From Catellatospora coxensis (GTDB lineage: Bacteria; Actinomycetota; Actinomycetes; Mycobacteriales; Micromonosporaceae), in assembly GCF_016862635.1 (NCBI RefSeq), contig NZ_BONI01000085.1:1-37795 (forward strand): DNA of 37,795 nt, in the 5' to 3' direction. A program made the position numbers and the translations under genes. The notes under the pieces are model-generated. The model was given only the letters and a program-made list of their open reading frames with translations. It was not told where the DNA came from and did no database searches. The stretch's first letter is position 1. The number at the start of each line of letters is the position of its first letter. Shown here in pieces: positions 6,775 to 20,534 of the stretch.

Positions 6775-7698
6775 GTGCTCACGGCCGAGATGACTGACGC
6801 GCTGCGCTGCCCCGTCTGCGCGGGCGCGCTCTCCCGCACCCCCACCACCCTGCGCTGCCCGAACAACCACTCGTACGACCTGAACAAGCACGGCTACGTC
6901 ACCCTCGGCACCGGCCGCAAGCTCCCCGAGGGCGACACCCCCGCCATGGTCGCCGCCCGCACCGCCTTCCTCGCCACCCCCGCCTACCTCCCCCTCACCA
7001 CCACCCTCACCCACCTGGTTGATCATGAACTTGTGGCACGGCTCGACGGCGTGTCGGCGCCACAACTTCATGATCATCTATCGGCGGCCGGTGATCAGCC
7101 GCACGGGGTCGCCGGAACGGGCGGGCAGGAGCGGACCGGCGGGCGACCGCTGGTGGTGGACCTCGGCGCGGGTACGGGGCACTACCTGGCGGCGGTGCTC
7201 GACGGCTCGGCCCGCGCGGAGGGGCTGGCGTTCGACGTGAGCAAGGCGGCGCTGCGGCGGGCCGCGAAGGCGCACCCGCGGGCCGGGGCGGTGCTGGCCG
7301 ACACCTGGGGCGCCCTGCCGCTCGCCGACGACAGCGTGGACGTGCTGCTCAACGTGTTCGCGCCGCGCAACGGCGCGCAGATGCGCCGGGTCCTGAAACC
7401 CGGCGGCCTGCTGATCGTGGTCACCCCGACCGAACGGCACCTCGCGGAACTGCGCGAACAGCTGGGTCTGCTGAGCGTCGACCCGTCCAAAGCCGAACGG
7501 CTCGCCGTCGAACTGCGCGACTTCACACTCGCCGACGAGCGCCTGCTGGAGTGGCCGCTGAACCTTACGGCCGCCGAGGCCGACGACCTCATTGCCATGG
7601 GGCCCAACGCCTTCCACGACCGGGCCCGCGCCACCGGGCCGGTGACCTGCACCGCATCCGTCCGACTCGGCCAGTACCGGCCCACACCGAGCAAGTAA
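6775..7698 (+). CDS. RlmA-type 23S rRNA (guanine-N1)-methyltransferase
   Basis: About 307 residues. The N-terminus has the RlmA zinc ribbon (CPVC...CPNNH), followed by the conserved [11 protein letters not shown] segment and [11 protein letters not shown]. The SAM-binding motif [30 protein letters not shown] and the VLKPGG motif follow. Family members methylate G745 (RlmA-I) or G748 (RlmA-II/TlrB) in helix 35 of 23S rRNA; I cannot say which. GTG 6775 and ATG 6790 are both possible starts. Between the AFL..YLPL region and the SAM motif there are about 35 more residues than in E. coli RlmA. Some 20 of them are encoded by a 61-bp palindromic repeat that recurs elsewhere in the window. Confidence 0.88.
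7018..7078 (+). repeat. 61-bp palindromic repeat, copy 1, inside a coding gene
   Basis: The arms TTGATCATGAACTTGTGG and CCACAACTTCATGATCA form an inverted repeat around a GC-rich centre. The reverse complement of 19608-19668 matches this copy at 57 of 61 positions. It is read in frame within the rRNA methyltransferase gene as a peptide beginning [13 protein letters not shown]. It resembles in concept the protein-coding palindromic elements known from Rickettsia. Confidence 0.9.
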
Positions 7699-19605: not shown

Positions 19606-19670
19606 GCGTTGATCATGAAGTTGTGGCCACGACACGCCGTCGAGCCGTGCCATAAGTTCATGATCAACGC
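19606..19670 (-). repeat. 61-bp palindromic repeat, copy 2, intergenic
   Basis: GCGTTGATCATGAAGTT at the left mirrors AACTTCATGATCAACGC-type sequence at the right. The core 19608-19668, reverse-complemented, matches 7018-7078 at 57 of 61 positions. Here it sits between malG and the GH13 gene, where it may attenuate or process the operon transcript. Confidence 0.9.
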
Positions 19671-19685
19671 GGAGGGGGTGGGTGG

Positions 19686-20534
19686 TCAGCCCTTCACTGC
19701 GCCGGCGGTCAGGCCGCTGACGATGTACTTCTGGAGCCAGAGGAAGAGGCTCACGGTGGGGACCGCCGTCAGGAGGGTGGCGGCGGCGAACATGCCGAAG
19801 TTGGCGTCGCGTTTGTCGGTGAGCATGCCGTACATGCCCACGGCCAGGGTCTTTGCCTCGGTGTCGCGGAGGAAGACGTTGGCGATGAGGAACTCGTTGA
19901 TGGTGCCGATGAAGGAGAGCATCGCCGTCACCGCGAGCACCGGTCCGACCAGCGGCAGGATGATGCGGAAGAAGGTCTGCACGTGCGACGCGCCGTCCAT
20001 GGTGGCCGACTCGTCGATCTCCTTGGGCACCGTGTCCAGGTAGCCCTTCATCAGGTACGTGTTCACACCCAGCGCGCCGCCCAGGTAGAGCACGAGCAGG
20101 CCCCACGGCTCGTTGAAGCCGAACGTCGGGTACAGCTCGGTGACCTCGGTGAACACGATGAAGATGGCCACGATCGCCAGGAACTGCGGGAACATCTGGA
20201 TGAGCAGGATGGACAGCAGGCCCACCCGGCGGCCCCGGAACCGCATCCGGCTGAACGCGTACGCCGCCGCCACGCTGATCAGCAGGCTGGCGAAGGCCGA
20301 GATCAGCGCGATGACCACCGAGTTCAGGAACCACCTGGTGTACGGGTGGTCACCGGTGAGCAGGTCGACGAAGTTCTTCAGGCTGGCGCCCTGCGGGATG
20401 AGCCCGGTGGAGCCGAGCGTGCCCAGCGGGTTGATCGCGGCGGAGACCACGAACAGCACCGGGAACAGCGCGAAGGCGCACACCAGCAGCACCACCGCGT
20501 AGCGCCAGCCGACCTCCTTGAGCCACTTGATCAC
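19686..20534 (-). CDS. malG: Maltose/maltodextrin ABC transporter permease MalG
   Basis: A 282-residue inner-membrane permease with six predicted membrane segments. The EAA loop EIDESATMDGASHVQTFFRIILPL contacts the ATPase, and the protein ends in QKYIVSGLTAGAVKG, typical of MalG. The GTG at 20534 overlaps the malF stop as GTGA (20531-20534) and has AGGAGGAGGT six bases upstream. It pairs with MalF; an ATPase is not encoded here. Confidence 0.94.
   Translation of the reverse strand: MIKWLKEVGWRYAVVLLVCAFALFPVLFVVSAAINPLGTLGSTGLIPQGASLKNFVDLLTGDHPYTRWFLNSVVIALISAFASLLISVAAAYAFSRMRFRGRRVGLLSILLIQMFPQFLAIVAIFIVFTEVTELYPTFGFNEPWGLLVLYLGGALGVNTYLMKGYLDTVPKEIDESATMDGASHVQTFFRIILPLVGPVLAVTAMLSFIGTINEFLIANVFLRDTEAKTLAVGMYGMLTDKRDANFGMFAAATLLTAVPTVSLFLWLQKYIVSGLTAGAVKG

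Follow-up and report, generated by a model that had tools for sequence, protein, structure and literature searches.

An oriented, REP-like hairpin family at gene 3' ends in Catellatospora, with one copy read in frame inside an RlmA-type rRNA methyltransferase gene

The stretch of Catellatospora coxensis DNA considered here (37,795 nt, hereafter the window) holds on its plus strand an ORF of 307 aa (6775-7698) that matches models of RlmA/MyrA-type 23S rRNA (guanine-N1) methyltransferases with scores below the curated cut-offs, and whose RlmA Zn-ribbon domain (Pfam PF21302) scores above cut-off. Residues C12, C15, C28 and H32 as well as the DxGAGTG motif are invariant in 12 aligned RlmA sequences; as far as these intact Zn-ribbon cysteines and the SAM motif tell, the gene is an RlmA/MyrA-type 23S rRNA methyltransferase (hereafter rlmA). 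Within it lies a 61-bp imperfect palindrome (7018-7078, plus strand, conserved arm first), the arms of which (7020-7037 and 7059-7076) are 94% complementary. This element belongs to the P type (see below), scores 76.4 bits with covariance model R1 and, as RNA with its flanks, folds at -38.9 kcal/mol (z -5.6). As stated in the preliminary description of this DNA, the inverted repeat has no stop codon in the reading frame of the 307-aa ORF, to which it contributes a 20-residue peptide, and it has a second copy in opposite orientation outside any gene (19608-19668, minus strand; P type, 57/61 identity, 78.4 bits with R1), whose open frame, VDHELMARLDGVS, encodes the similar peptide that had been described (VDHELxARLDGVS). 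This copy 2 begins 17 nt past the stop codon of a minus-strand ORF that, by the look of its sequence rather than by a family search, encodes an ABC-transporter permease (19686-20530, the upper limit being approximate, with the upstream ORF ending at 20531). The intervening 17 nt (19669-19685, minus strand) form a C-rich leader, a designation based on the composition control given below. Copy 2 has an orthologous counterpart, at the same site, in each of the three other species first examined. In G002, the element at this site (L214:18914-18973) lies in the opposite orientation to that of three other species.

In the alignment with E. coli RlmA (1p91), residues 79-125 of the query stand opposite chain residues 75-87, which agrees with the earlier remark that the linker exceeds that of the E. 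coli protein; the element accounts for 20 of the extra residues. The insert occupies the same place in all 11 rlmA genes of the Catellatospora genomes compared (the own genome, G000, included) and in none of 27 aligned rlmA genes from other Micromonosporaceae, which have variable linkers at this site and represent the better matches among 53 non-Catellatospora genomes with an rlmA match (the other 26 had no locus). This distribution indicates that the insertion is ancestral to the genus. Outside the element, dN/dS ranges from 0.18 to 0.47 in seven rlmA pairs, so that the rest of the gene is under purifying selection. The earlier proposal of an insertion tolerated in frame is supported; the enzyme would accommodate a linker of 20 residues. 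Species-specific sequence at 7079-7150 of the window lengthens the linker further (a peptide of 18 residues), being longer in G005 and G003 and absent in G010.

An explanation at the level of the protein would be that the RlmA peptide itself is selected and that its likeness to intergenic sequence is a coincidence or a relic. VDHE is indeed kept in 10 of the 11 orthologues (ADHE in G003), and GV in all 11. However, four invariant two-fold codons within the element are AT-ending in 44 of 44 cells across the 11 genomes, whereas none of the 18 invariant two-fold columns outside it is AT-ending throughout (the highest reaches 7/11) and AT-ending codons make up 92 of the 598 background two-fold codons there. 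Selection on the protein does not explain this conservation. Moreover, in 9 of the 11 species the rlmA copy and the closest intergenic copy sampled from the same genome differ by 2-8 substitutions, against 11 in G003 and 15 in G005. Of the adverse outcome envisaged in the preliminary description, namely a linker carried by all orthologues but devoid of nucleotide similarity to intergenic copies, the first half holds and the second does not, the similarity being clear. Selection on the peptide alone is hardly credible, being already contradicted at the nucleotide level. The capacity of the rlmA copies to form the hairpin is uneven: P types fold at -25.7 to -32.5, where mononucleotide shuffles average -14.3 to -15.9, those of G001, G005 and G006 are intermediate, and those of G003, G007, G008 and G009 fold about as well as shuffled sequences.

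The spreading of the element had been postulated from two copies, and the part of this claim that implies a dispersed family is borne out, which also disposes of a chance pair: the own genome (G000, 9.35 Mb) contains 203 arm matches with at most 3 mismatches, against 5 for a reversed-pattern control. A DNA search with the element gave 59 matches from the best 40 scored of 149 candidates, a number in which the two strands of a palindrome may count twice, and an exact 23-base pattern occurs in at least 86 stretches of named genomes, all 86 of those listed being from Catellatospora. An 837-kb set composed of the window and of stretches picked irrespective of copies, although with rlmA deliberately included, contains 19 copies according to the covariance model (best strand, E below 1e-5); 4 of these lie in rlmA, and 16 of the 19 score 63-78 bits. 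A phage origin was rejected, as no viral contig matches the Catellatospora arm exactly and the 33 viral stretches retrieved with a looser palindrome pattern reach at most 37 bits with the model, against the 63-78 bits of those 16 copies. In G003 there are 22 arm matches versus 96-135 in eight relatives searched alike, as if the family were decaying there.

The family has a well-defined anatomy. In a profile of 168 copies chosen by an exact match to their first 21 bases, which thereby fixes columns 0-20, columns 21-60 are conserved beyond this selection: CGG is followed by TCGACGGCGTGTCG and then by a more variable right arm that ends in CATGATC(A/G)A(C/T), and conservation fades outside the element. 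The general layout of the 57-61 bp core consists of an outer stem (TGATCATGA/TCATGATCA), a covarying inner stem and a loop that contains CGGCGTGTC in many copies. Thirty 57-bp copies served to assess the stem across genera (Catellatospora contributed 9, other Micromonosporaceae 19 and one genome of another family 2; one sequence, L349, was dropped from an initial 31). Standard pairs fill 93.1% of the cells of a 17-pair stem, and both-sided changes affect 33 cells against a shuffle mean of 11.5 (0 of 500 shuffles as high) or, counted by pair, 8 pairs against 4.3 (1 of 500), a signal that stems from the inner pairs, the outer nine columns per side being predetermined by a search pattern that allowed at most one substitution, and therefore uninformative; 7 of the 17 pairs are invariant. 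The leader before the element has a C fraction of 0.56 and a G fraction of 0.19 (206 copies), compared with 0.37 and 0.33 in the 15 nt after 318 other stop codons. No Rfam covariance model reaches its gathering score in the window, and none matches in four loci up to E 0.1.

In the Micromonosporaceae at large, 155 of 354 genomes and 15 of 44 genera contain the pattern TGATCATGA-(34-46)-TCATGATCA (0 matches for the reversed control), although genomes with a single match need not hold the family. In a class-wide draw the motif is found in 7 of 394 genomes, comprising 2 Micromonosporaceae and 5 genomes from four other families. Given this patchy distribution (155/354), the family is dispensable in many species. 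Among the copies listed, inner stems vary between genera, and CGGCGTGTC recurs in another family, f16 (L352, L358), and partly in f31. In another genus, G048 (L337) has 66 palindromes that match the outer motif, and 4 of its 6 distinct copies listed are near-perfect stems with unrelated inner sequence and no CGGCGTGTC loop. Similarly, G563, G454 and G535 (L357, L354 and L353), from other actinobacterial families, have 14, 4 and 3 palindromes with outer TGATCATGA and differing interiors, for which homology and convergence are both possible.

The placement of the copies relative to genes was determined for 206 unique copies sampled in Catellatospora loci, using a home-made, rough GC-position gene finder by which several rlmA genes are predicted without their start; the resulting counts omit elements less than 400 bp from a locus end and, like the orthologue counts below, lean to P, the named loci having been chosen by an exact P-like left half. 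On this basis, 10 copies reside in rlmA orthologues, 1 forms a C-terminal extension (L074) and 195 lie outside predicted genes, where 76 are convergent, 70 tandem sense, 35 tandem antisense, 12 divergent and 2 at a locus end. A sense gene is thus found upstream of 146 of the 193 classified copies, at a median distance from stop codon to hairpin of 16.5 nt (convergent) or 19.5 nt (tandem), and the element's own GT-TGA provides the stop codon in 22 of 148 sense copies. Of the 51 copies outside Catellatospora, 25 lack orientation, which relies on the loop motif itself; a sense gene lies upstream of 22 of the other 26, at a median of 23.5 nt, a figure separated from a pooled count of 33/38 that included 12 Catellatospora copies. 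In the pooled set (63 copies, 12 of them from Catellatospora), 4 copies fall inside predicted ORFs (L317, L320, L323, L355). In all 28 neighbour pairs less than 300 bp apart, the two copies face each other and have their conserved arms on the outside, an arrangement expected if two convergent genes each carry their own element. An autonomous element between paired copies was rejected, since the inspected spans hold unrelated ORFs (dapB-like, methyltransferase-like and D-Tyr-tRNA-deacylase-like, named by sequence look); the pairs are therefore taken to be separate elements, one at each of two facing 3' ends.

This placement bears on the proposal, made in the preliminary description, that the element behaves like the Rickettsia palindromic elements (RPEs), i.e., as selfish DNA that inserts anywhere and survives if in frame. 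RPEs occupy many unrelated genes, with 44 insertions in R. conorii according to PMC10969869. The present family resembles them in being multi-copy and in including a palindromic repeat translated in frame inside a gene, rlmA. A second copy is also translated: at L074:1570-1628 (G010, contig C3), the VDHEL frame of the element continues a membrane-protein-like ORF, which ends soon afterwards. Additionally, two weaker open frames cross a copy, at L168:4006 and at L005:1508, and on both sides of it their scores are compatible with coding; by eye, the L005 copy precedes the likely start of a sigma-factor-like protein, and the L168 frame, taken from the ORF list, is not recognisable. However, no other clear internal coding copy exists among the 196 non-rlmA copies; in-frame copies among the 206 sampled are limited to rlmA and the one C-terminal extension, so that a single gene has an internal copy in the genus sample and the family is mainly 3'-intergenic. 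A protein search limited to the insert returned three RlmA proteins among 49 candidates (length 0.55-1.75 of the query). The strong 3'-end placement and orientation likewise argue against indiscriminate insertion, as does the finding of neither clean insertion junctions nor target duplication at four sites where one species lacks the element. With 195 of 206 copies outside predicted genes, an old rlmA insertion and a typical copy that is a sense hairpin about 20 nt past a stop codon, the likeness to RPEs does not hold up, and an RPE-like nature of the family is improbable.

Palindromic repeats with comparable placement are provided by REPs, which in PMC3733652 are described at convergent or unidirectional intergenic sites near 3' ends, supplying stop codons and occasionally occurring in frame in proteins; PMC3733652 contains no words starting with actinobact, micromonospor or Streptomyces. 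BIMEs consist of REP pairs in alternating orientation (PMC2817692). The family could accordingly represent REP/BIME proper, or a MITE, moved by a Y1 (RAYT/IS200) or other transposase, its 3' placement arising through the purging of harmful insertions. Its copies are short, imperfect palindromes, numerous, 3'-proximal at convergent or unidirectional sites and arranged in facing pairs, and the provision of stop codons mentioned above (22/148) is likewise a REP trait; with MITEs they share short, repeated sequence with palindromic ends and no protein of their own. Unlike REPs, though, they measure 57-61 bp instead of 20-40 bp, have a C-rich leader and the CGGCGTGTC loop, and reside in actinobacterial hosts. 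Neither a GTAG nor a CGTC end tag appears in the column profile of the 168 copies, in which the preceding columns favour CCGC/CCGG and the 3' end reads GATC(A/G)A(C/T). A search of the 11 genomes for the REP-associated RAYT (Y1_Tnp, PF01797) found it in 6 and not in 5 that have 67-151 arm matches, and G003, with 3 Y1_Tnp, has the fewest arms, 8; RAYT was rejected as the mobiliser because its presence does not track copy number. As to the other marks of MITEs, no clean target duplication or junction was seen at the four sites mentioned above, nor a parent transposon on unsystematic inspection. Purging alone would also leave the uniform orientation of the pairs (28/28) unexplained. Having failed the size, tag and transposase tests, the family is considered REP-like and is not filed as REP; its being a REP, BIME or MITE in the strict sense is possible, if doubtful. 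Integron attC sites, which also place a hairpin after a stop codon, were rejected, the copies being dispersed and their arm ends not fitting the core-site consensus.

The position of the hairpin also invites comparison with terminators. As a canonical intrinsic terminator, i.e., a hairpin followed by a U-tract, the element does not qualify, since only 14 of 148 sense copies have at least three T in the first 8 nt downstream and a U-tract is thus not typical. Term-seq in Streptomyces clavuligerus has delineated a class of highly structured, U-lacking transcript 3' ends (PMC8269248). The strong hairpin after the stop codon and the lack of a U-tract liken the present elements to such U-less (I-shaped) terminators, from which they differ in forming a repeated family with conserved sequence and loop and lineage-specific stems.

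The copies fall into two subtypes, P, with a right arm like CCACAACTTCATGATCAAC, and Q, with a right arm like CCACCCTGGCACCGTGATCGAC and often GGACGTG in the left half. The intergenic copies of G000, G010, G004, G002 and G005 comprise 103 P, 2 Q and 2 unclassified, and those of G001, G003 and G006-G009 comprise 40 P, 31 Q and 3 unclassified, totals that combine loci from the genome pattern search with stretches taken by place only, include 20 stretches chosen around listed matches, omit elements with less than 300 bp upstream and are biased for G000, in which the search pattern also matches P right arms and 8 loci were found by likeness to a P copy. Of 64 orthologous groups, 37 span both genome sets, or 36 without rlmA; in 11 of these 36 intergenic groups, one or more members from the second set have Q where the first set has P, the reverse occurs in none, and 25 have no P/Q difference. 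The rlmA copy is itself P in G000, G010, G004 and G002 and Q-like in the other seven genomes (in G003 by eye, the script leaving it unclassified). The tracking of subtypes is imperfect, as G005 has P intergenic copies and a Q copy in rlmA. In comparisons of G005 with P-type rlmA genes, identity is 0.70-0.73 in the element, where 16-18 positions differ, as against 0.88-0.94 in the upstream and 0.80-0.88 in the downstream coding sequence. The simplest reading of the P/Q difference in rlmA is subtype replacement by copying from another element; the rlmA gene tree built without the element is weak, gives no firm grouping of the P-type genomes and would fit one replacement or several. In this regard, the P/Q parallels between rlmA and intergenic copies suggest copying between copies, and the rlmA insert appears to have been overwritten by versions of the repeat from elsewhere in the genome, for which either gene conversion or re-targeting would fit.

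Lineage-specific subtypes might also arise if the element were a DNA site for a sequence-specific binding protein, each arm (GTTGATCATGAAC) being in itself nearly dyad-symmetric and the protein and its sites coevolving by lineage. The left arm is fixed even in Q types with an unpaired right arm, most of which were found via the left arm, and it is kept in rlmA at synonymous positions, where the search did not select it. The distance and orientation after stop codons and the covarying inner stem nevertheless point to the transcript, and the 16-18 differences between the G005 and P-type rlmA elements would hardly accumulate through point mutations if selection for binding acted alone. A DNA-binding site is an unlikely explanation.

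Collectively, the copies constitute a repeated, oriented, 3'-proximal, covarying hairpin with an ancient in-frame member, conservation at the nucleotide level and lineage subtype differences at orthologous sites. The explanation that we favor, by a modest margin over its being wrong, is that of an oriented 3'-end hairpin family of the Micromonosporaceae and a few other actinobacteria, one copy of which was domesticated as the RlmA linker and the copies of which exchange sequence. The usual site would be the transcribed 3' end of genes, where the stop codon is followed by a C-rich leader of about 20 nt and then by the hairpin, which would most likely act at mRNA 3' ends as a terminator without a U-tract or as a REP-like 3'-end stabiliser. 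As the comparison of orthologues shows, one copy entered rlmA in frame in the ancestor of Catellatospora, at the variable linker that connects the Zn-ribbon part to the SAM fold, and was kept as about 20 residues. Copies within a genome, the rlmA copy included, would exchange sequence by copying, through gene conversion or re-targeting. Against a strictly strand-specific role of the RNA stand the 35 tandem-antisense and 12 divergent copies. The favored explanation must further contend with the site that is inverted in G002, the four rlmA copies that fold about as shuffled sequences, the absent U-tract, the patchy distribution, the Q copy in G005 rlmA among P copies, the 11 and 15 substitutions that separate the rlmA copies of G003 and G005 from their closest relatives in the same genome, the weak rlmA gene tree and the 25 of 36 groups without a difference. 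More tentatively, and with less than an even chance of being right, this may be an undescribed actinobacterial family of structured mRNA 3' ends, the copies of which would be recognised and actively rewritten by lineage by a machinery other than RAYT; the rewriting would extend to the protein sequence of RlmA and leave the frame intact. Among the literature matches listed, no title or abstract start was recognisable as this repeat, most subscription literature lying outside the search.

These observations provide a genus-wide case in which a REP-like repeat has become part of an rRNA-modifying enzyme, apparently while still exchanging sequence with its intergenic relatives, so that concerted evolution across coding and non-coding copies becomes directly measurable. 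They also point to a conserved 3'-end hairpin with a testable leader-stem-loop architecture in actinobacteria, a group whose termination signals are little understood.
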